The translations under genes and the position numbers were made by a program. Below the pieces are notes generated by a model. The model did not search any database and was not told where the DNA came from. It saw nothing but the letters and a program-made list of their open reading frames with translations. This document shows positions 2,618 to 42,530 of a DNA stretch of 64,000 nucleotides, one piece after another; position 1 is the first letter of the stretch; every line of letters begins with the position of its first letter. Source of the DNA: Sabellastarte sp. h YS-2021 (lineage: Eukaryota; Annelida; Polychaeta; Sabellida; Sabellidae). The DNA is taken from positions 5,769,962 to 5,833,961 of the forward strand of contig OZ024933.1 in the NCBI GenBank assembly GCA_964017235.1. The letters run 5' to 3'.

Positions 2618-3615
2618 ATGGGCAAAGTGTCAGATTCCGAGTCGTCCATTAGTGAGTCAGACTGTGAAGCTCTGATAGCATCCGATCCTGAATCGGATGC
2701 TGAACAGCTGGAAACTAGTTCCCGTAAAGACAAGGTTGTTCAGGAAAGTAGTTCCGTAACACAAACTGTTATTAATGAAAAAATTCTTGCACAGCTTGAT
2801 AAACTTGGTAAAAGGCTCGACAGTATTGAAAACAATGTTAGTAAACAAGGTGTTGTCAAAAACAAGTGTAAAAAGTCAAAGTTGAAACCTGATTCCTCGG
2901 TCACAGTGTCACCTTGTGATCAAGTTAAGAAAATCCCAGATTTGACTGTACTTAGGCAAGACATGTCGGTGCAAGCATTGGTAGATCAGCACCTTAAACA
3001 GCTGGCGGATGCTGAGAAAACAGGTACAAAGATCAAATCTTTGCGTGGGGGTTCTGTAGAGGTTCTGGTTCCCAACCGTGTGAAATGGCCACTTGAGTAT
3101 GTCCTATCTGGCTTGAGTAAAGAACGTATATCATATGACCAGTTATCAACCACACAGTGGGTGGCTGGCTTTTGTCGCATCATGAAGGAAGAAAAAAATT
3201 CAAATATTAGGGACAATATGTTAGATTACATGATCTCGTTGTTTGATTATGCCAATGATTTTTCTTGGGATGTGGCAAAGGCCAGCCACGGGTCCTCCTC
3301 TGTAGAATGGAGCAGGGGGAAGACAGGGACTATAGTCAAACTGAAAAAATTGACAGGATACGTCGTGCCAATGCACAAAGGCATAATGTCACAACATTCG
3401 GTAACCAGAATCCCAAAAGATTAAACTCAAAACACATGAAGTCCATGCCATGCAATTATTACAATGCTGGGACCTGTTTCCATAGTAAAACACACGAGAC
3501 TAGGGGTGTATTGTACAAACATGTGTGTGCAGCCTGCCATGCGACAGGCAAGTCTTTTGGCCACCCAGAAATTGAATGTAGGTCCAAGAATAAAAAACTC
3601 CCAAAAAACGAATGA
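2618..3615 (+). pseudogene. DIRS Gag-like protein, frameshifted
   Basis: Two overlapping frames make one protein. The first (2618-3424) begins with an acidic Ser/Glu/Asp-rich region, then a predicted coiled coil (EKILAQLDKLGKRLDSIENN), then a region with RVKWPLEYVLSG. The second frame (about 3265-3615) carries the C-terminal zinc-binding stretch: C-N-Y-Y-N-x-G-T-C-x5-H, later HVCAAC and HPEIEC. This resembles the Cys/His C-terminus of DIRS Gag proteins. One frame change near 3300-3400 breaks it. The N-terminus is cut by the L2 insertion. Confidence 0.65.
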
Positions 3616-3681
3616 ACTTGGGTGGTCACACGAATATGACCACCCAAAGACAAAAAAACTAAAGTATATTACTCGTCTGTT

Positions 3682-5522
3682 GTGTCAAAGGCCAGGCAAC
3701 AGTCAAACATTGATAAAAATTTGGCCATTAGGTATTTCAACAAACAGAAAGCATATCAAAGTATAAGTGCCAACAAATCTTATGCAGATGCGCTAAAGTA
3801 TGGCAAAAATACTCTTGCTAAGGTTAACAACACCATACTACCACCTAGTCACATAACAAAGTCGGATCCGGTAAAACAAGGTGTATCCACAACAATTGGC
3901 AGAATCCCAGCCAATCTGGTCAATGCGACCACATGCTTTAACAAGACCTACAAGCAAGAATCTCCCGTACATATCACCTTGCATAATAGATTCAATGTTT
4001 TCAACACTGTTGATACAACAGACGAGGTGGATATTTCTTTGGTGGGAAAAAAAAACGAAACTGGGTGTCCTGATGAGGTTAACAAACACACCAAGCTGGG
4101 TAAGATGGCTACAAATAATTATACTTCTGTAAACTCTGTAGTACGGAACGTTTCAACTGACGGACATAGCCGTACCCATAGTGTTGATTCTAAAGAAGTA
4201 TTTGACAGAAACTATGTCCTCAATAGCTGTGACAATGTTACCCACATATCATGTACCAGGGGTGCTGAGAATGATAGTAACCATTTGAACTCTGTTGTTC
4301 ACAAGTTACAGTTTGGTTTTCTGCCTTCAGAAACCTTAAAACTTTATACAGGGGATCCCGTATACTATGAACAAATCCCAGATATCATAGCAACACATTT
4401 AATGGTTAAGAAAAGTGGTTTACCTAATTTCCTTCAATGTCGCATACCAGTTACATCCAACTTGAACGTTGACAGGTGGCGTTTCTACTTGCTCCCAGAT
4501 CTATTGGAGTACGGTTTTCCCATTGACTTTGACCGGAATTCTGCACTCACCTCCACATTTGTCAACCATACTTCGGCACTGCAAAATTGGGATCATGTGG
4601 CCAAATATATAAGTGAGGAACTTCAACATGAAGCAATCATGGGTCCATTTACCAAACCACCTTTTCCCATTCATATTTCTCCTTTAATGACTAGGGATAA
4701 GCAAGATTCCCTACAAAAAAGAACTATCATGGACCTTAGTTGGCCAAAAGGTATATCAGTTAATAATGGGGTTGACAAAGATAAGTACTTGGACACTCCA
4801 TATACCCTTAACTATCCTTCAGTAGACAACATAACTGCCTCACTGTGTAAGCTAGGTCCAGCAGCTCAGCTCTTCAAAATAGACATAAATAGAGCTTTCC
4901 TACAGATCAAAGTTGATCCTGGGGATATAGACCTTCTAGGTATCAAATTTGAGGATCACTATTTCATTGATTTATCGGTTCCATTCAGATACAGGCATAC
5001 TTCAAAAATTTTTCAGGTTGCACTGACTCAATTTGCCATATTATGGCTAAACATGGCTTTCCAGGTCTCTACAATTACATTGCTGACCTCATCTTTACTG
5101 GATTGCCCTCAAAAATTCATCTTGCATATGAATTCCTAAAGAATCTATTGTCAGAACTAGGTCTGGACATCAGTGATAAGAAACTGGTACCCCCAAGTAC
5201 ATCTGCAGTCTGTGTGGGCATACTAATTAACACTGTAGATAGAACCATATCAATTCCTCCCAAGAAACTTGAGGACATAGTCCATACTTGTAAAAATTGG
5301 AAAACTAAAACATATTGCAGTAAAAATCAACTTCAGTCACTCCTGGGCAGTCTTTTGTACATAACAAAATGCGTCAAACCTGCCAGGATATTCCTCAATA
5401 GAATACTCCAATTACTCAGAGATAACTTTGAAAATACAAAAACTCTACTGAATACGGAATTTTTCAGATTTTTGGCATTTGGCATTTTTGGCATGGTCCA
5501 ATGCATCCTTATCTCAATTTAA
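3682..5522 (+). pseudogene. DIRS reverse transcriptase, frameshifted, catalytic Asp lost
   Basis: The first frame (3682-5139) has a low-complexity N-terminal part, then the RT fingers and palm: QKRTIMDLSWPKGISVNNGV, and DINRAFLQIKVDPGD as motif A with its Asp. The frame then shifts near 5040-5100, and the rest is read at 5043-5522. There the catalytic box reads YIAD (5076-5087) instead of the usual Y-x-D-D, followed by TGLPSK and the connection region (LGLDISDKKLVPPS, then LLGSLLYITKCVKPAR). The missing first Asp and the frameshift make this copy inactive. Confidence 0.8.
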
Positions 5523-6037
5523 TGGAGTTACCTACTATGACCAAAAGTTCTCTAGAATTCCGGTCCATTTGGATGCATCTCTTACAGGATTGGGGGATCA
5601 TTTTGATTCAATGGTTTATTCCCTCCCCATACCTCTAGGTTTTATGGGTTATACAAATCATACACCTAGAGACACTCAACATTGTGGTAGCTGCCAAGAT
5701 ATGGGCAACCCATTGGTCAAACAAAAAAGTTTAAATGTTCTGTGATAATATGGCAGTGGTAGAAGTCCTAACGACTGGTAAGACTAGGGATAGAACTCTA
5801 GCCACATGTGCCAGAAATCTCTGGCTTATTGCAGCTATATTCAACATTGATTTCATCTTCTCTCATATTCCTGGTGTCAAAAATACTGTAGCTGACCTAC
5901 TATCCCGTTGGCAAAATGACCTACACCATAGCAGCAGACAGAATGGACCATGGCTTTACGCCCAACACTTTAAGGCAGGATGTGGTCTGATTTTCAGGCT
6001 TTTAAGGTGGCAGCTGGGCTGCTCACCTCTCAGGTAA
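5479..6037 (+). pseudogene. DIRS RNase H domain, frameshifted
   Basis: Follows the RT directly. One frame (5479-5745) has VHLDASLTGLGDHF with the first RNase H Asp. The next (5735-6037) has FCDNMAVVEVLTTGKTRD and the end SHIPGVKNTVADLLSRW, the usual C-terminal signature of DIRS and Ty3 RNase H. At least one frame change separates the two parts near 5735. Confidence 0.75.
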
Positions 6038-6863
6038 ATACACACATCTTGCTTGCTTTTATGGAGTATCTACACTCCAATGCCCAGTCAAAATCCAATA
6101 TTTCCAATTATATGGCCACTATTAGGGCCTTCCACATCATATATGGTCTTTCTACTCATTGCTTCAGGGATGAGCGTTTGTCACTTTTTCTTAAATCCAT
6201 CCAGAATTCAGCCCCTCTTACTACTAGGAGGAGTACACTTATCGACATTGAAACTCTCCATGATATTATTCACCAATGTGCAAATATGGACAACCCCATC
6301 ATTTTAGGCCCCTTTATCTACTATGTTTCTTTTCCTTTCTTAGGTTGTCCAATATCTTACCCCATACTACTTCCTCATTCGACGTTACCAGACAGTTGGC
6401 TCGGGGAGATTTTATAACACAAGATCAGGGTGGTTTGCTTCTCGTGAAATGGTCTAAGACCATTCAGAATCGTAGAGATACCATGACACTGCCTCTCCCC
6501 TGCTTGGGATCCTCCCCTTTGTGCCCAATTGCTGCCCTTAAATTAATGAATCAGGTCCTTCCCGCTGAACAAAATGCTCCCCTATTTTTGCTTCCACATA
6601 AACGAGGTCTAGTACCACTCACAGATTCAGTGGCTCGAAAACACCTAAAGTCTGTATCACTGGCTCTGGGTATAGCCCCTCCTTAGACATTCCATGCTTT
6701 TCGCAGGGCTGGGGCCTCATGGGCTTTTCATAATGGGGTTCCCCTTGAATACATCAAAAAACATGGTACGTGGAAATTGGATGCTGTCCACACATATTTA
6801 GTTTCCTCCCCCTCCTTGTCATCCCCTGTTTCCCAGGCTTTTGCTGCTTCCCTTTCCTCCTAG
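5980..6863 (+). pseudogene. DIRS tyrosine recombinase, broken
   Basis: Three frames give one recombinase. The N-terminal core-binding part is read at 5980-6330 (NISNYMATIRAFHIIYGL), the first catalytic part at 6276-6683 (FLRLSNILPHT, with the box-I Arg), then a TAG at 6684-6686 interrupts. Reading continues in the same frame with FHAFRRAG (H-x-x-R), a later His and VHTYL with the nucleophile Tyr, ending at TAG 6861-6863. The R, H-x-x-R and Y residues are all kept, so inactivation is by a frameshift near 6330 and one nonsense codon. Confidence 0.8.
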
Positions 6864-23184: not shown

Positions 23185-24299
23185 TTCATGAAAGTCCGGA
23201 GACAAAAAACATGATAAAAAAATAGGAGTCTGTCTAGAGCTCGCTCTTACCAAATTACATTCTACTAAGAAAATATGCTGAATAATATAAGGGTGAGATT
23301 AGTTGTAAGGTACTTTTAGTGCAACATGAATAAAATAGCTTCTGATGGAACTTTCTATTCTTAAACCAAGATATTCAAACAGATTATTTAATTTATTTTA
23401 CTCTTTGTATATACTGTAACGTGTGCTATATTGTTGTCAGGTCTTATTACTTCTACTGAATTAAAAATTACTGTCGAAATTTACCAACATGTTAACCTGT
23501 TTTTAGCCCTTTTTGCTTAAACACAAAGAAACAATCAATAATAATAGGTTTCTCTCTCCAGAAAAATATGTTTTTACCTTGTTAGACTTCTTTGACTTCT
23601 TGTAAATGTACAATGCAGTCAGAAACTCAACTGTAATGCCACTTATATATATAATCTATTTCCCAGCCCATCTTTTCACTTTCTTTCATTTTATCTCATC
23701 AAGATGTCAAAATGTTCACTGAACATTTTTATGAACAGAGATGCTTACGTGTAAGCTTGCCATGGGAGTAAATAATAGATCAAAAGCAAAAAATGTTGCT
23801 GTAATGCTTTATTTTATTCCTTTCATTGAAACGTAAAGAGAAACCTTTTTCTATGCTATTAATAAATATTGCATCTTTGCTTAGCTTTATGTTTTGACAA
23901 ATGACATCAGAGTTGTTTGCATCTTTTTACCGCATTGGGATATATACCAAACATAGAATGTAACAGGATTGTCAGAAAATATGATTAATTGGAGGTGCAA
24001 ACAATTGCCTCTCAGTTTTCATTCCTGTCAGGCTTTGTTTCATCATTGAATTCAACAAATAACAGACATTTCAAAACAGGACAATTGATAAATTACCAAA
24101 ATAGGCAAGAAACAAAAGCTACTGTGAACATATTCATAAATCATATATGTTCTTATTATATTTTGATGTTCCTTTATGAGCATTTATATGAACGTTAGGA
24201 TACATTTATGATACATTCTGTATCTTATGTGGGTGTTCCACCACACGACTAAGGCTCCCGATTAAGGGTTTTTGGGGGTCGGTTTGAAATATTTGCTTA

Positions 24300-24770
24300 G
24301 TCCCAGACCTTCTGTAAGGGTCGGTTGTTGTCGGTTGGGGCCGTGTGAAAAATCAAACATGTTTGATATTTCTCACGACTACAACCGATTCATATTTCCC
24401 GCCGTCAACAAAATGTCCAGTCCCAGGTGTCCTCAGGCCTCCTCAGACCCAAATTTACACAGTCGTGTGTTGTCCCAGGCCGCCTGCGACCCTTAGTCCC
24501 AGACCTCCGTAGCTTAGTCCCAGGAGGCCGGTTGTTAATCCCAGTCTGCGGTGTCTTGGGACCCAAAAATCAAGGTCTGGGACTAAGCCCCGACTAAGGG
24601 TAACCGACCCTAACCGATCCAAACCGGCCTCCCCAGTACGCCTGGGACAGCACAAATTTAGTCTGCCACAGTCTGAGGACGCCCCAGGCGGCCTGGGACT
24701 AACAACTGATTAAGAACCGACTGTTTTCCGCGCGTCAGAAATTAAAAGGAGGCAATGAGCAGGTCTGGGA
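24300..24770. repeat. Left subterminal motif array of Harbinger
   Basis: At least nine copies of GTCCCAG or its complement CTGGGAC, often as CCTCCTGGGAC or GTCTGGGACTA, occur in both orientations. A matching cluster sits at 28510-28765. Such subterminal arrays often bind the element-encoded Myb-like protein; that role is inferred. Confidence 0.6.
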
Positions 24771-24772
24771 CT

Positions 24773-24779
24773 ATATAAG
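24773..24779 (+). promoter_or_regulatory. TATA box of the Harbinger MADF/Myb-like gene
   Basis: TATATAA in the context GGGACTATATAAGC, about 215 nt upstream of the ATG at 24992 and directly beside a subterminal GGTCTGGGAC motif. Confidence 0.55.
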
Positions 24780-24991
24780 CGACCGCGCACACTTTGTCAT
24801 TGTTACTGACTGTTTGGCTACTGAGAGACGTGTGTCACTGATTTGTAGGGGTTTTCAATTTTTATTTTATATATATTATACTTGAGCTTAAGGCAAATTT
24901 CACAGTTAGGAGACACATTTTACTATTTTTTTATTATTTTGTCGACTGGATCATGAGATAAGAGAAAGGAGGGAAGAGAGGAAGGAAAAAG

Positions 24992-26158
24992 ATGGATGAG
25001 AGGGAGAAGGAAAGTCAAGTAGAGGAGAGGAGTGAAATTATTACAGAAGAAGGAACTGAGAGGAGAGAGGAGGATGAGATTGAGGAAGGTCCAGCTATTG
25101 GGGAAGCTGTGGCAGAAGAAGAAGAGAGGTGTGAAGAAGATCCGGAGTGCCATTCTTCAGCCAAGAGAGCCAGGGTGTGTGCCACTTTTACAGACAGCCA
25201 GGAAGTTTCCATTGTGGAATTTGTAAAGCTGCACCCTGAACTGCATGACAAGGAACATTCACGTTTCCACCACAGGACCAGAAGAGAGGCTCTCTGGGCA
25301 GAAATATCTGCAGAACTCAAGCTCCAGCCCTTTGATGTGAGACGTTGGTTCTTGTCCCAGCGAACCTGTTATGGAAAGCTGTCTAAGCTCCAATCTGGCC
25401 AAGCCCCAAGGGAGATGACCAAGAGACAGTCCTGGATCTACCAACAGATGGGTTTTCTTAAAACCCATATCAGAAGAAAGGGGGCCAACAGAAGTTCAGG
25501 TTTTGAGGCCAGTCCAAATACCAGCAGGCAGGACGAATCACTTGGGTCAACTACTGACACAGAACACCTGAGGGAGAGGAGTCAGTCCATCATTACATCA
25601 ACACCCGTTTCAACTACAGACTCCAAGATTCTCGAACACTTTGAGCAGATGAGGACACTTATCTCAGGCTTTCTGCATCAGAAGTCAGACAGGCAGCCCT
25701 TCTTTGACTACGTGGCATCAGAGGCCGAAAAGATGACTCAAGAAGAATTTGAAGAATTAAAGGGCAAGATATTTAGAAACATCGAAACTATTAAGAGCAA
25801 CCGTAGACGTCAGCCATTGCCCAGAAGATCAGCCACTGTTACCACGGAGTCCCAGAGGGTCGGCCTACTGCCAACAACCACTCCACAGGCGTCTAGTTCC
25901 ACTCAAGCAGCAGCTAGCAGCAGTTTTGTGTACTATACACCAAGCCCCATTGGCTTCAGCAACCCGACATCTGTCCTAACTGTACAGGACAAAGGGAGCA
26001 GACACAATCTGAGTGGAATCTTAAGCCAGCTACCATGTCTGACATCAACACAGATCGTCGAGCAGCCTCAGCAGCAGCAGCAGCAACAACTGCAGCAGCT
26101 CTTTACTATCACCACTTCAGCACCGCCTCAACAGCAGCAGCAGCAGCCTCCTCAGTAG
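24992..26158 (+). CDS. Harbinger MADF/Myb-SANT-like DNA-binding protein
   Basis: 388 residues, start chosen because the preceding in-frame ATG is followed at once by a stop and this ATG has a purine at -3 and G at +4. Residues 1-55 are highly acidic (Glu-rich). Residues 62-135 form a MADF/Myb-SANT-like domain (TFTDSQEVSIVEFVKLHPEL, then REALWAEISAEL, then DVRRWFLSQRTCYGKLSKL). After it come basic and Ser/Thr-rich stretches and a C-terminal polyglutamine region (350-388). In Harbinger transposition the Myb-like partner helps bring the nuclease to the nucleus and to the element ends. The frame is open throughout. It lacks introns. The stop is 32 nt before a histone-type stem-loop. Confidence 0.82.
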   Translation: MDEREKESQVEERSEIITEEGTERREEDEIEEGPAIGEAVAEEEERCEEDPECHSSAKRARVCATFTDSQEVSIVEFVKLHPELHDKEHSRFHHRTRREALWAEISAELKLQPFDVRRWFLSQRTCYGKLSKLQSGQAPREMTKRQSWIYQQMGFLKTHIRRKGANRSSGFEASPNTSRQDESLGSTTDTEHLRERSQSIITSTPVSTTDSKILEHFEQMRTLISGFLHQKSDRQPFFDYVASEAEKMTQEEFEELKGKIFRNIETIKSNRRRQPLPRRSATVTTESQRVGLLPTTTPQASSSTQAAASSSFVYYTPSPIGFSNPTSVLTVQDKGSRHNLSGILSQLPCLTSTQIVEQPQQQQQQQLQQLFTITTSAPPQQQQQQPPQ

Positions 26159-26190
26159 CCATCCAGTCAGGGCGGGTCTTTGACCTGCCA

Positions 26191-26210
26191 GGCCCTTTTC
26201 AGGGCCACCA
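26191..26210 (+). terminator. Histone-type mRNA 3' stem-loop after the MADF/Myb-like gene
   Basis: GGCCCT-TTTC-AGGGCC forms a perfect 6-bp stem with a UUUC tetraloop, followed by ACCA. This fits the metazoan replication-dependent histone mRNA 3' end. It starts 33 nt after the stop codon, the usual spacing for histone genes. A block CTTCCAAAAACAATT follows. The same arrangement is found on the opposite strand behind the nuclease gene. An AATAAA near 26300 could also serve, so use of the stem-loop is inferred. Confidence 0.75.
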
Positions 26211-26970
26211 AATCTTCCAAAAACAATTATTTAGCTGCAAGTTATTCCAATTCCCCTCCCAAAACAAAAAAGTTCAGTACAAATACTTATCACAAGAAAA
26301 AATAAAAATTAAAGTCCAACACCCACACCACCCCAAACATGAAATAAATAACCCATGGTACCACACATAACAAAAAGGCCACATAAAAAAATTTTAAAAA
26401 TAACTCCCAATATGGCCATTAATCAGCCCATTTTTAGATTAAAATCCATGGGATAGTTTAAAATTTGTAATTGAAAAGTCCAACACTTACACCTTCCCTA
26501 GAGTTAAAAGGCATTATTACATAATTACCAACCCACAAACAGACAAACCCAATACCAAACATAACCCCCAAATAACAAACCCAGTACCAAACCTAACAGC
26601 CAACTACAAAAAATAAACCCAACCCCAGTAACCACCAACCAAGAAACACACAAACCCAAAAGTAAATAGAACCCATGCCAACGAACTGACAAACTATTTT
26701 GCAAACACAATCCCCCATTATTGAAAACAAAACTAGTTCCATGGTTATATTTTCCACATGTTTGTGATTAGAAGTGAAGATTTAAAATTGAAGATTTCCA
26801 TAAAAACATTTCTGCTACAAATAAATTTCCAACCCATGAACAAAAAAAATTGGTGAAATTAGGATGTGGATTTCAAAATATATAAAAAATTAATTCACTT
26901 TTGGATATTATGTGTGGCTTTGTGTCTGGCTTTTGTTTAACAATGGGTTTGTATGTTTCCTGGGTGAGTA
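26211..26970. other. Harbinger interior between the convergent genes
   Basis: AT- and A-rich non-coding DNA with C/A-rich low complexity at 26520-26700. No gene. Confidence 0.5.
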
Positions 26971-26974
26971 AGTT

Positions 26975-27122
26975 GTGGTTGTCTGTTTGTCAATCTGAAA
27001 AAGTTATGTTTGGCACGAGGTTTGTCTGTTTGTCCGTCTGAACAAGTTATGTTTGGCATGGGGTTTGTCTGTTTGTCCGTCTGAACAAGTTATGTTTGGC
27101 ATGGGGTTTGTCTGTTTGTCCA
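26975..27122. repeat. 43-bp tandem repeat, about 3.4 copies
   Basis: Units start at 27008, 27051 and 27094 (GTTTGGCAYGRGGTTTGTCT...), with a diverged partial unit before them. It lies between the 3' ends of the convergent Harbinger genes. Confidence 0.85.
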
Positions 27123-27139
27123 ATTGTTTTTGGAATATT

Positions 27140-27159
27140 TGGTAGTCCTGAAAAGGACT
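27140..27159 (-). terminator. Histone-type mRNA 3' stem-loop, distal, after the nuclease gene
   Basis: On the minus strand AGTCCT-TTTC-AGGACT makes a 6-bp stem with a UUUC loop, followed by ACCA and then AATATTCCAAAAACAATT. This is nearly identical to what follows the plus-strand stem-loop at 26191. It lies about 40 nt past the nuclease stop codon. Confidence 0.72.
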
Positions 27160-27162
27160 GTT

Positions 27163-27182
27163 TGTTAGTCCTGAAAAGGACT
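27163..27182 (-). terminator. Histone-type mRNA 3' stem-loop, proximal, after the nuclease gene
   Basis: A second identical 16-nt stem-loop, 17 nt past the nuclease stop (27202-27200), followed by AACA rather than ACCA. The duplication of stem-loop plus spacer suggests one may be a tandem copy of the other. Confidence 0.65.
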
Positions 27183-27199
27183 CTTTACTGCAACAGGAC

Positions 27200-28418
27200 T
27201 TATATTCTGCCATCTTGCCAGGCCACTGCTCCCTCATTATTGAAGTAGTCCTTCAGGTAATCCCTCTGTCTTTTGGCCTCTCTAGCAGGGTTTCTGTCTT
27301 GGCCACCACCAGCAGCACCAACAATCAATCCACAATCACCAGGCACATCATCATCATCATCATCCCCAGGCTGCTGACCAGCAGGTTGACCTTGATACTG
27401 GCTTCTGAGTATGTTGTGCAGAACCACACAGGTCATGACCACTTCTCTAACTGTTTCTGGGGGTAGTTCAATGGTGGTTCTCATCACTCTGAATCTTGAA
27501 ACCAGGATGCCAAAAGCGTTCTCCACAACTCTCCTGCCCCTTGATATTCTATAGTTGGCAATCCTTTCCTCTCTTGTTAATAGCCTTCTACCATAGGGTT
27601 TGATGAGCCAGGTCTTCAGGGCAAAGGCATCATCTGCCAGAATAAAGTAGGGGACATCTCTACCACCCTGTGTTATAGGAGCTGTGTCAGGGAAGCCTAT
27701 CCTGCCATCTTCAATCCTCCTCTTCAGCTGAGAGGCATTAAATATCCGGGCATCTGAGCAAGATCCAGCTGTACCCACATCCACCCATCTGAACTTGTAC
27801 TGTCCATCTACCAGGGCCAACATGACAATGGAAAAGAACCCCTTGTAGTTGTGGTAGAGGGCTCCAGAGTTCTTGGGTTTCTTCAGGGCCACATGCTTCC
27901 CATCCAGGGTTCCCAGGGCATGTGGAACATTCCACCTGATCCTGAATTCCCTTTCCAGTTCTTTCCACTCATCTGGAGTAGTAGGACATTTGAGGTACTG
28001 TGTATGACTCTCCAGTGGCCAGATATCTGATGGTGAGGGCTAACTTCTCCCCAACACTGATAGGAGCTCTGTAGTTGGTGGCCTGCCTGGCTAGACGTGG
28101 TTCCAGTCTGGTCTTCATCATTTCAAAGAATTCTGGGGTCATCCTCATGTAGTTGGTGAATCCTGGAATGTCTGTGGCATACAGATCAGCCATAATGTTG
28201 TGGTAGGCCCCCCTCTCCTCTCTCTGCAGTAGCCATGGCCTGACCCACATGTTGTGCCTTCTTCTAGGTCTCTGTATGGGTGCTGGTGGTGCTGGTGGTG
28301 GTGGTGGTGGTTGCTGTGCTTGACGTAAAAAATGGAAATACATGATTATTTGTAACTGAATAAAAACCAAAAAAGCCCTAAGTTGTTGTTGAATCTGTCT
28401 TCCATTAAAAGGTGGCAT
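27200..28418 (-). pseudogene. Harbinger DDE nuclease (transposase), internal deletion
   Basis: Read right to left. The first part (28418-27969) has a Gln/Pro-rich N-terminus, then the helical region leading to RYLATGESY. The second part continues in another frame with CPTTPDEWKEL and then the DDE domain: GTLDGKH (first Asp), FILADDAF (second Asp), RRVVENAFGIL (Glu), ending in QRDYLKDYFNNEG. All three catalytic residues are present. The frame changes at 27997-28004, where the roughly 30-residue segment normally linking GESY to the CPTT region is missing, so the fault is a deletion with frameshift, not an intron. Stop at 27202-27200, then two histone-type stem-loops. Confidence 0.85.
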
Positions 28419-28463
28419 CCTGCTGTGTTCCTAAAAAAGCAATGGTGATTAGATCGCGAATTT

Positions 28464-28475
28464 TATATATATATA
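28464..28475 (-). promoter_or_regulatory. TATA-like element of the Harbinger nuclease gene
   Basis: An alternating TA run on the minus strand about 45-60 nt before the first ATG (28418). It suits a short leader, but an AT run can be a chance feature. Confidence 0.35.
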
Positions 28476-28509
28476 CCCAGAAAATCCAGCAAATTTGCAA
28501 AACAATAAT

Positions 28510-28765
28510 CGGGGATCCTGGTCTGGGGAAGACTGAGGAGGCCTGAGGAGGCCGGGACTTAATCGTGGGTCAGTCGGGGCTTAGTCCCAGGAGGCCTGAG
28601 GCGTCCTGGGACCAAGTCGGTTTGTGTGCGACAGGATCGTGGTTGAAACCGACCCAAAAACTGGCTTAGTCGGTTCTTAGTCCCAGACCAGTCGGAGACT
28701 CTCTGCGGCCGCCTGAGGCGTCCTGAGGCCTCCTGGGGACGATCTGTTCTTAATCCCAGACTTCA
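28510..28765. repeat. Right subterminal motif array of Harbinger
   Basis: Repeated GTCCCAG / CTGGGAC / GGCCTCCTGGG words in both orientations, mirroring the left array at 24300-24770. Confidence 0.6.
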
Positions 28766-28997
28766 GTACCGACCCAGTATTCCCGCTCATTTTTGTTATT
28801 TTTCCACCGACTGTCCACAATTAAGGGTCGCCGACAGGATCGGGGCTTAATCTGTTGGTGGAACAGGGGCATTACCTAGTCAATCGCTATAAGGCAATCA
28901 AGGTAAAATCTACTTTGACCTGAGCAAGTTATCATTATTTAGGCTGATCTGATTCACCTTATACAACACCTCACTTCAAAAAAATTTTGAGATACAT

Positions 28998-38519: not shown

Positions 38520-41500
38520 CACTGACATTTAATTTTTTTATATTTATTTTCTTTTTCAAACATAAAGACATACAATAATGATAACAGAAAAACATATTAC
38601 AACAATGGATGCATGGCTACGATATTTGTCACATCCTTACACTAGGATGATATATAGATATTTATATTTTATTTTCCTTGATATGACCAAAAGATAGTAC
38701 ATAACCACTGAGTAAAACTTATTTTCGATACAAATAACATTATCCATTTTTAGTGTGATTTAAGATATAGTCTGGATTAGGTTTGAAACAAGCATCCAAT
38801 TTCTTGTAAAGCGAGCGGAAGCATCTGTTATGGCATACAGGTATGATTGTTCATCAAAGACTCGCTTGATGTTAAGTTGTAATGCATTAAAACTTGGTTT
38901 ACAACTCTCTTTAAGACATTTAAATAAGTAGGATTTTACTATTGAGGTTATGGCATTTATGGAAAAGGTGATAGCACTGCGACCCTGAATTCCAAGTATT
39001 ATTGATTTTTTGTCAAAGTCAAATGCTGAACCTGTTTCCTGGTAAATCCAGTGTTTAAGTAAGTCCCAAATTTCAGTAGAATATAGGCAATCTACAAAGG
39101 CATGAGTTATTGTTTCAGGCATATTATTACAAAAGCGACAAAGACTGTTGTCAACTTTTTTCATTTTATACAGTAGAGCCTTTGTTCCCAATATGTTATG
39201 AAGTATTCTATACTGCAACCAAATAATCTGGTTATCAAGAATCGTTTTAAAGCAGGTCAGATGTATGTTTTTCCATTCTTTTAATTCTATATTTATTTGA
39301 AGTATTTTTCCCAAGTGTTTATATGGACTAAGTCCTTTTGAGTATCACTTTCTGTGAGCACATGGTAGAAATCTTTACAACCTTTCTTTGATTTGTTTAT
39401 CAATGATATAGTCTTTGGCCATATTGGTTTCTCAGGTAATTTGATCTGAAATCCAGCACCATTTTTATTTCTAAATTTTTCTATTCTTAACTGTATTCAG
39501 TTATAGTCTAGGGAATTAAGATTAGTTCCATAAGTATTTATAACTTCTAATGTCAACAGGTTACCTTCACTATTATATAAATGAGCAGGGTAAATTATTC
39601 CCACTCTGTACCACTGTGGCAGAAAGAGGGTTTCTTTTGAGATATTTGGATTGCACCATAGTGGGCAAGTTAGACTATGTGGTTGTGCATTATTCAGTAC
39701 TGCTTTGAGTACTCTTTTCCAATTTACCAAGATGTCCCCCCAAAATTTGTTTGAAATCTTGTTTGCAATAATATCGCACCACGATGGTCCCATATGCAAA
39801 AGTTTTTCCAAAGATTTTATGTTATATAAACAGAAATCGTAGTAGTCAGAATTTTGGTTTTGGACTAGTTTTCTCAACCATGTCAGTTTGAGGGCCGGTA
39901 TCTGTATACTTATATCAAGCATTCTCAAGCCCCCCCCATTTATAATCCATGCAGATGGTATTCCTTCTTATTTTGTCAGGCTTGTTATTCCAAATAAATT
40001 TAAAGAATAATCTCTCCAAAGTCTTTATAAAGTTTTTACTAGGATCCGGAATACATAAGAACAGATAATTTAGCTTTGACACTATGAAGGATTTCAGGAC
40101 TGTTATCTTTCCTATGGGTGACAACAAATGCCGTTGCCATTGGGCAAGTGACGCTCTTATTTTATTTAATGCAGGTTCGTAGTTAAGGCATTCGCTACCC
40201 CAATGTAGCTCCTTGTTTATCTTTACTTTGTCCTTAACTCCCTTTTTCTTCCCAATCCAGACTATTTGGGTTTTTTCAGTGTTTACTCTTAAACCAGATA
40301 TATTGCCAAAACTTTCTTGTATATTGAGAGCTGCTTGGAGGGAGTCTTCAGTTCCATTTAGTATAATAGTGGTATCGTCAGCAAACTGTGTTATCTTTAT
40401 TTCCTTTTGTCTAATCATGATGCCTTTTATATTTTTATCGTTCATAATCATCAGGTACAAAATTTGGGCACACAAGATAGATAGGGGGAGATTGGGTCTC
40501 CTTGTCTACATCCTCTTTTAATAGGCAAAGGGTTTGATAGGAATCCACACTGGCTAACTGAAGCTACTATATTAGTATTAAACAGTTTGATCCATTGTTT
40601 GAAGTTAATGCCAAAATTTTAAAATTCTAGAACTCGGTACAAGAATGTCCATGAGAGTCGAATGCCTTTTCAAAGTCCACCAACATTATTAGGCCAGGAA
40701 TATTTTCTTTCTCTGTATAATGAAGAAGGTCGTAGATCAAACGAATGTTTTCTCCAATATATCTTCCACTTATGAAACCAGTTTGTGTTCTAGAAATTAA
40801 TTTGTCCAGGACACCCTTGAGTCTATTTGCTATTGCCGATGATAAAATTTTGTAGACACAAGATAGAAGGGAAATTGGTCTCCAGTTCTTTTAGGTTTGT
40901 TGCCTTTTGGAATACAAGAGATTAAGCACCGCCGCAACGATATGGACATTTCTCCTTTAGTATAGGACCATTTATACGCTTTTAGTACAAAAAACTTTAA
41001 TTTTTTCCAAAAAAATTTTTAAAAATTCAGCAGGGTAGCCATCGATACCTGGACTTTTTCCATTTTTCATTTGTTTTAAAGCCTTACCTATTTCTTCAAT
41101 GGACAGTTCATGTTCTAAACCCTTAGCTTCCACTGAAGAAAGCTTTGCTGTTTCTAAATTATTCAAAATTTTTTTCAACTGTGGTTCACATTCATTTTTT
41201 GGTTGTGAAAAAAGTCTTTTATAAAAGGTTTGAACTTCATTCAGAATTTCTTCTTGGTTCGATATATATTGACCATCTGATTTTTGTAGCCTTTTGATAG
41301 TTTTGTCTATGTATCCTTTATTCTCTAGGGATGACAATAATTTAGAAGGTTTTTCACCATCTTTTAGCCATGTTGCGCGAGAATGAACCTTTGAAGCTTC
41401 TTGTTCTATTGCACGAAGTTTCACAAGAGCCTCCTTCTTACTAATTAATGTGTTTATATTTTTTGCATCACATGTTGCTTCAAGTTGTTCGATCTCTTTT

Positions 41501-42530
41501 TCTAAATTATTCTTTAAGTTGGCATTTTCCTTTTTAAGGCGAGATGCAAATTTAATAGTTTCTCCTCTAATCTTTAGAAGAAGGACCTCCAGAAATAAAT
41601 CGTCAGGAATGGTCATGTGAATATCTAGATCACTAATTTGATTAATGGTGCATGGATTATATACTAATGCAGCATTGTTCAGTTTTCCTGAATCTATTAT
41701 GTTGTTCACCATAATCAAATAATCTTTATTTTCCAGAAGAGAGCAATTCAATTTCCAGGTTCCCCTCCCCCTATTAAAGTTACATAACGTTAACTTTAAC
41801 TCTATTATTGAATGATCCGATCTGTACCCCGGCTTTATATTACTACTCTTTATGTGGTCACAAAGATTATCAGAACACAAAAAATAGTCTAGCCTAGCTT
41901 GCTTGATTGGAGTTTTACGACGTCAAGTGTACTGCCTGGTGGACGGGTGGAGAAGACGGAAGGTATCAACTAAGTTTTGTTCGGATATTATATCTATCAG
42001 GCGAGCACGGGCACGTGGGTTATTAATTGTTTTGTAGTTGTGATAATCCATTTTGGGATTTAATACCAGATTAAAATCCCCACATATGATTGTATAGTCT
42101 AGTTCATTGTTTATCAGAATATCATTTAAATTTTCATAAAACCACGGAGAATCTATATTAGGTCCATAAATATTGATTATTTTTAAAGTCATATTATCTA
42201 ATTTTAGATCTATAAATATTATATTATTTGTGTCATCACAGTAGCTGTCCAATATTTTGTATTCGAAGTTGTTTTTTAGCATTATTGCCACCCCCCGAGC
42301 ATTTGACCTGTGTTCATTGATTAGTATATGGCCTTGCCATAGTTTATTCAAGAGTTTTAAATCCTTTTCAATCCAATGGGTATCTTGTAGACAGATTATT
42401 GAGGAGTTTAAATTTTGTAAATAGTTTAAGACATCAGTACACTTATTCATATCTCTTAGACCTTGACAGTTTGCTGACAATATACTCAGTTCATTTAATA
42501 ACAACATGACATTGTTGTGGAAGACTCTTT
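38520..42530 (-). mobile_element. L1/Tx1-type LINE, nearly full ORF2, decayed
   Basis: A minus-strand ORF2 in natural order: AP endonuclease (42507-41600), linker, RT (about 41100-39500) and a C-terminal zinc knuckle (near 39150). I find no ORF1 upstream. The 3' end near 38530 is A-rich on the minus strand. Confidence 0.85.
38760..42507 (-). pseudogene. LINE ORF2 protein: endonuclease and reverse transcriptase
   Basis: The start at 42507 opens MLLLNELSILSANCQGLRD. The endonuclease shows IICLQDTHW, IINIYGPN, CGDFN and, after an in-frame TGA at 41925-41923 in place of the usual Trp codon, RLDYFLC and GYRSDHSIIELKL. The linker has WLKDGEKPSKLLSSLE and MKNGKSPGIDGYPAEF. The frame then breaks near 40975. 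RT motifs follow: RGCRQGDPISPYL near 40500, frame change, then FADD near 40400 and LRVNTEKTQIVW. Later frames (39928-39497 and 39314-38760) give the thumb and a CRFC...H...C knuckle. At least four lesions make it inactive. Confidence 0.85.

Follow-up and report, generated by a model that had tools for sequence, protein, structure and literature searches.

Histone-type 3' end signals follow both genes of a PIF/Harbinger transposon lineage in a sabellid annelid

Introduction

In a stretch of 64,000 nucleotides (nt) from the annelid Sabellastarte sp. h YS-2021 (contig OZ024933.1, positions 5,769,962 to 5,833,961; hereafter the window), an earlier note made from the letters alone had pointed to a Harbinger transposon with two genes, one for a MADF (Myb/SANT-like) protein and one for a transposase, each followed by a stem-loop of the histone mRNA type. 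According to a passage of PMC6303110, the replication-dependent core histone mRNAs are the only known metazoan coding mRNAs in which a 3' stem-loop replaces the poly(A) tail. The question that this locus raises is whether a mobile element has placed its own genes under the 3' end code of histones. The answer that we favor, with a probability of roughly 0.7 judging from sequence, is that a PIF/Harbinger lineage carries a complete histone-type 3' end signal after both genes, and that its mRNAs would be cut by the SLBP/U7 pathway, lack poly(A) and be tied to S phase.

Results and Discussion

Stem-loops at both gene ends

The two genes of the transposon are convergent, with the MADF gene on the plus strand and the transposase gene on the minus strand, and both end in a 6-bp stem, a loop of the UUUC type (TTTC in the DNA) and ACCA. 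The MADF stop ends at 26158, and the first base of the stem-loop GGCCCT-TTTC-AGGGCC is the 33rd nt beyond it; the earlier note had placed this stem-loop and its ACCA at the same distance, and we find them at 26191 to 26210. Its reading of the other gene end, where AGTCCT-TTTC-AGGACT was said to occur twice on the minus strand, 17 and about 40 nt past the nuclease stop and with ACCA after the distal copy, holds as well. From what is known of histone mRNAs, ACCA is the expected cleavage site in the element.

The note had further proposed to run the Rfam histone stem-loop model on the element. With cmscan, the MADF end matched RF00032 (Histone3) at 35.2 bits, over the gathering cut-off of 34, and nothing else in the 64-kb window reached an Rfam gathering score; the transposase end stayed under the cut-off at 29.6 bits (E value of 1.5e-5). 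A relaxed motif, defined as a 6-bp stem with a TTTC or TTTA loop and an ACC-like tail, has two occurrences in the window, one at each of these gene ends, versus a mean of 0.15 and a maximum of 1 in 40 dinucleotide-shuffled windows. Genome-wide, AGTCCTTTTCAGGACT has 6306 exact matches (3114 + 3192) and GGCCCTTTTMAGGGCCACC has 2186 (1151 + 1035), with 0 matches for the reversed control in each case. With thousands of genome matches versus 0 control matches, and 0.15 expected per shuffled window, chance or an assembly artefact is a negligible explanation, and the idea of a chance hairpin was rejected on the shuffles and the genome counts.

A downstream element shared with host histone genes

Searching with H4 protein located H4 at three sites on contig C2, of which one is partial. 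The host H4 tail reads GGCTCT-TTTC-AGAGCC ACCTATATCTTTCAAAAACAATTATTCAGCTG, and the host H2A tail reads GGCTCT-TTTC-AGAGCC ACCCATATCTTTCAAGAACTTTTATTTGAGC. Beyond its stem-loop, the MADF tail of the element reads ACCAAATCTTCCAAAAACAATTATTTAGCTG, and from ATCTT onward 24 of 26 bases match H4. In the two tails of the window, a CAARAAC core begins 11 nt past the stem-loop; in H4, in H2A, and in both tails of L003, the seed of a second family described below, it begins 12 nt past it. Given the match of the MADF tail to H4 and the spacing of the core in both tails, the element carries a downstream element resembling that of host histone genes besides the stem-loop. This feature, which the earlier note had missed, is the strongest evidence.

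In 1.79 Gb, the canonical host stem-loop followed by ACC has 39 exact matches. An H4 or PF00125 match precedes each of the six that are found in the C2 cluster, and a tandem array on C4 holds another 32, all of them (32/32) located 326 nt past a PF00538 (H1) domain. Since 38 of the 39 adjoin histone genes, the exact canonical form is nearly confined to such genes, in a count that excludes histone genes with variant ends (13 PF00125 matches and an H1 array on C5 are without an exact canonical stem-loop). The match at C8:62488613 is the sole one of the 39 without an adjoining histone match. The C5 array, a large one at C5:129.62-129.81 Mb and on C138 with a period of about 1.69 kb, does not have the exact canonical stem-loop of the C4 array; it may rely on a variant signal or on poly(A) for its 3' ends.

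Retention among copies of the family

A transposase-protein search returned 16597 candidates, of which 150 were scored and the 30 best loci, the window copy among them, were kept. A stem-loop lies within 150 nt past the stop in all 30, with an ACC-like tail in 27 and CCAARAAC after the last stem-loop in 26. By its own criterion, the earlier note would have been refuted had other copies lacked stem-loops at this position; the stem-loops are there in 30/30.

Together with four loci found by motif, this gave a set of 34 copies with 34 distinct stops (family A). The transposase stop is followed by one stem-loop in 5 copies, two in 12, three in 16, and four in 1, and the downstream core comes after them in 30/34 (missing in L011, L019, L032, and L037). 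An ACC-like tail is found on just 1 of 47 proximal stem-loops, so that as a rule only the last stem-loop is a complete signal. Neighboring stem-loops of the tandem are spaced 23 or 25 bp in 35 of the 36 pairs on C1. For the MADF side, 29 stops were recognized in the 34 loci, 25 of them with stem-loop and core and the other 4 retaining the stem-loop. As a separate observation, six exact GGCCCT-type stem-loops stand exactly 1460 bp apart in a tandem array at C1:64935297-64942615, which is perhaps an element-derived satellite.

Compared with the replication-dependent histone mRNAs of metazoans (RF00032; SLBP/U7), the element has the same 6-bp stem, TTTC loop, and ACC tail, a downstream element at equal spacing within 1 nt, a signal tens of nt past the stop, single open reading frame (ORF) genes, and a MADF tail nearly the same as that of host H4. 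It differs in the products of its genes (a transposase and a MADF protein), in its stems (GGCCCT and AGTCCT versus GGCTCT in the host, 3 of 6 positions showing paired changes), and in the two to four tandem stem-loops of the transposase gene in 29/34 copies.

We also made a census of convergence, which listed 100 sites, all within the first 23 Mb of C1 and amounting to 64 transposase stem-loop clusters. For 30 of the 64 listed clusters, an exact MADF stem-loop lies on the opposite strand 0.69 to 1.41 kb away, and for 0 on the same strand; among the 34 MADF stem-loops listed in these 23 Mb, 30 have a transposase stem-loop nearby. Such facing pairs are what one would see if the signals served mainly to end convergent transcription fast, avoiding double-stranded RNA and silencing, with S-phase coupling as a side effect. 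That explanation does not predict a histone-specific signal over strong poly(A) sites, and we think it very improbable.

A second family and the origin of the tails

The transposase of L003 is 56 to 59% identical to that of the window, and both signals are present at this locus. Its protein was used to find 12 loci (family B), of which L073 is the seed itself. AGTCCTTTTCAGGACT occurs near the end of the transposase match in 9 of the 12; L074, L080, and L081, where it is missing, are truncated transposase matches. CAAGAAC lies downstream in seven of the nine loci with the stem-loop, six of which read CAAGAACTTTTATTTAGC and one, L075, CAAGAACTTTTATTTACC. In 4 of the 12 loci, which are short, a script detected the MADF side, with H4-like tails; three of the stem-loops are GGCCCT-TTTA-AGGGCC or AGGGCT, and L074 has AGGGTC. 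The MADF-side signal of L077 was found by Rfam in addition. At an E value of ≤0.01, Histone3 matched 16 of 18 element loci (not L074 and L084) and both histone loci, and the gathering score was passed by 8 element loci, always on the MADF side. Within L073, positions 2950-3063 give subgathering scores to several microRNA families, with mir-266 on both strands, and are probably a palindromic repeat.

When the 3' untranslated regions (UTRs) of families A and B were aligned (13 transposase-side and 14 MADF-side element rows, the transposase row of L073 beginning at a wrong stop), little in common was seen by eye outside the signal island. In alignment A2, with 17 rows, three of the six stem pairs change on both sides and all cells pair, while slid versions pair at 8 to 57%; its covariation score was reached by 0 of 500 shuffles.

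These alignments bear on the possibility that an ancestral element gained histone gene tails by chance and that the tails are now functionless passengers. Capture would give a MADF tail nearly identical to that of H4 and a family B transposase tail that has CAAGAACTTTTATTT in common with the host H2A tail, both of which are seen, and other DDE_Tnp_4 loci do without the signal. Yet stem, loop, ACC tail, and downstream element persist in both families, although the rest of their UTR sequence aligns poorly; the changes that set element stems apart from host stems are paired; and the signals stand directly past both stops of convergent genes. We regard mere passengers as improbable; the likeness of the MADF tail to H4 and of the family B transposase tail to H2A suggests that histone gene tails were captured and then came under selection.

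Absence from distant relatives

As controls, we took 30 other DDE_Tnp_4 loci from a PF13359 search, with several copies of one family among them. They are only distantly related to the window element: 10 of the 30 were listed by blastp, at 21 to 36% identity. No histone-type stem-loop was found within 400 nt past the examined stop in any of the 30, including L051, where the stop belongs to a broken frame and does not mark the end of the gene. Two unrelated hairpins were seen among them, in L061 and L071. At an E value of ≤0.1, Rfam Histone3 had no match in the 20 of these 30 loci that were scanned, L051 included. The idea that the signal is a general feature of DDE_Tnp_4 loci was therefore rejected, on 0/30 distant loci and 0/20 by Rfam. 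One protein scan and two motif scans of viral collections were without a hit.

Poly(A) signals

AATAAA or ATTAAA occurs within 600 nt past the transposase stop in 8 of 34 family A copies versus 27 of 30 loci without the stem-loop. In the window, the MADF gene has AATAAA at 143 and 185 nt past its stop. We did not accept depletion of poly(A) signals as proof, since it is weak: shuffles of the window tail were free of the hexamers over 600 nt 34.5% of the time.

A different reading of the stem-loops is that they act in export or translation via SLBP while polyadenylation of the transcripts further downstream occurs as well or even predominates, giving dual 3' ends like those of H2AX. The two AATAAA sites of the MADF gene fit this, and so does a report, in a passage of PMC6303110, that misprocessed histone pre-mRNA uses downstream poly(A) signals. 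It is less easily squared with the downstream element, which serves cleavage and is retained along with the stem-loop, or with the window transposase gene, which has no AATAAA or ATTAAA within 1000 nt, although 15% of shuffles do likewise. On balance we consider dual ends unlikely, if worth keeping in mind. Histone genes of Caenorhabditis elegans offer a parallel: PMC1924863 reports that a poly(A) signal is present in their 3' UTR as well and that, even so, a majority of the mRNAs end 3 to 6 nt past the hairpin, untailed. The element is like these hairpin-ended mRNAs in that a poly(A) signal is also present in the 3' UTR, and unlike them in that it is a mobile element and they are histone genes.

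Proposed 3' end processing and host machinery

In the processing that we propose, host SLBP and the histone pre-mRNA cleavage machinery would cut the transposase and MADF transcripts just past the stem-loop. The resulting mRNAs would have no poly(A) and would be translated via SLBP; they would build up in S phase and be destroyed at the end of replication. The proteins for transposition would then be made in dividing cells during DNA copying, which may benefit transposition. In the host genome, C6 encodes the SLBP domain PF15247 as two pieces separated by about 11 kb, with E values of 3.7e-12 and 1.3e-5; a TAG lies within the stretch read for the second piece. Given thousands of element signals versus 39 canonical host stem-loops (exact matches in both cases), the family may draw on the SLBP supply of the cell. 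L087, a candidate for U7, was rejected, as it neither matched the U7 model of Rfam nor folded in an unusual way.

Several observations weigh against such processing. At none of the loci tested did the transposase-side stem-loop reach the gathering score of Rfam, the best value being 33.1 bits. The core is damaged or misplaced in 4/34 transposase-side and 4/29 MADF-side copies, the copies are related, so that their counts are not independent, and in L002/L039, a third and degraded locus (34% identity over 62 amino acids), a stem-loop is present without the downstream core. The rows of A2 were picked for the motif, so its 100% pairing comes by selection, and its doubly changed pairs were reached by 31 of the 500 shuffles and its pair types by all 500. 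The scarcity of poly(A) hexamers behind the transposase gene is not significant alone, at the same 34.5% of shuffles, and the AATAAA 143 nt past the MADF stop means that a poly(A) route exists. Finally, for U7 snRNA, whose 5' end would be expected to pair with the downstream element, the model RF00066 gave 0 matches in a search that scored 65 of 574071 candidates, which is not evidence of absence, and a U7 pattern search gave 29 versus 16 control matches, the one candidate read not being U7.

On the sequence side, the family copies, the second family, the host histone genes, the downstream element, the SLBP gene, and the negative controls all agree with the earlier note, whose interpretation is supported in part; non-polyadenylated ends, SLBP binding, and S-phase timing are predictions. 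With somewhat less assurance, we lean toward the broader claim that a whole DNA transposon lineage has adopted the histone 3' end code for both of its genes, with a transposase that would be poly(A)-less, replication coupled, and confined to S phase. A link between transposition and replication has long been suspected for cut-and-paste elements. If our reading is true, transposition would be tied to DNA replication through a defined cis-signal, a large transposon lineage would break the histone-only rule for stem-loop-ended coding mRNAs of metazoans, and thousands of SLBP/U7-type signals outside histone genes would provide a natural test set. We found no precedent joining transposons and the histone stem-loop in the open-license literature, as judged by titles and the starts of abstracts.

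Anatomy of the element and other features of the window

The features of the window copy are collected in Table 1. PIF/Harbinger elements duplicate a 3-bp TWA target, and the window copy has TTA on both sides together with terminal inverted repeats, besides a DDE_Tnp_4-type transposase and a second ORF with a Myb/SANT-like domain. Its inverted ends are imperfect (TGTGGGTGTTCCACCAC.. versus the reverse complement TGCCCCTGTTCCACCAA.., with 19 of 28 positions alike in an ungapped comparison). About 91 to 92 bp of sequence present in relatives is absent from its transposase gene, and the reading frame is interrupted; in many relatives the transposase frame stays open over about 430 to 440 amino acids. 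The MADF gene and, in the open frames of relatives, the transposase are each readable as a single ORF, as would suit intronless genes, and introns may lie beyond the ORFs. The two-ORF layout of PIF/Harbinger elements (PHIS superfamily) is described in PMC4482050; the window element resembles them in its DDE_Tnp_4 transposase, Myb/SANT-type second ORF, and 3-bp TTA duplication and differs in the histone-type 3' ends of its genes. In the main text of PMC4482050, the words "stem-loop," "hairpin," and "untranslated" each occur 0 times.

Table 1. Features of the transposon copy in the window (positions counted from the first letter of the window)
Feature	Position	Strand	Basis or remark
Left target-site duplication, TTA	24225-24227	no strand	Direct reading; same as TTA at 28872-28874
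PIF/Harbinger-type DNA transposon, 4644 bp	24228-28871		Ends, duplication, transposase, copies
MADF (Myb/SANT-like) ORF, 388 amino acids, single ORF	24992-26158	+	Pfam PF10545, E value 1.2e-9
MADF-gene stem-loop GGCCCT-TTTC-AGGGCC	26191-26206	+	Rfam RF00032 at 26186-26231, 35.2 bits, over gathering score
ACCA after MADF stem-loop, expected cleavage site	26207-26210	+	ACC tail common to host H4 and H2A
MADF downstream element ATCTTCCAAAAACAATTATTTAGCTG	26212-26237	+	24/26 bases same as host H4
Transposase-gene downstream-element core CCAAAAAC	27126-27133	-	
Distal stem-loop AGTCCT-TTTC-AGGACT, then ACCA	27144-27159	-	40 nt past transposase stop; Rfam RF00032 at 27164-27119
Proximal stem-loop AGTCCT-TTTC-AGGACT, extra tandem copy without ACC tail	27167-27182	-	17 nt past transposase stop
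Transposase ORF, C-terminal part, DDE_Tnp_4, 230 amino acids as listed	27200-27892	-	Pfam PF13359, E value 6.2e-30
Transposase ORF, N-terminal part, 149 amino acids	27969-28418	-	Alone without Pfam match
Right target-site duplication, TTA	28872-28874	no strand	Direct reading

Between 26194 and 27156, the tails of the two genes are imperfect inverted copies of each other, with 43-bp tandem repeats (26979-27121) in between, and they look as if one tail had been copied to the other gene. Elsewhere in the window, the cmscan run gave no gathering-level Rfam match near two groups of open frames, at 2618-6686 and 38760-42507; by eye, no domain search having been made, these look like a DIRS-like element and a LINE.

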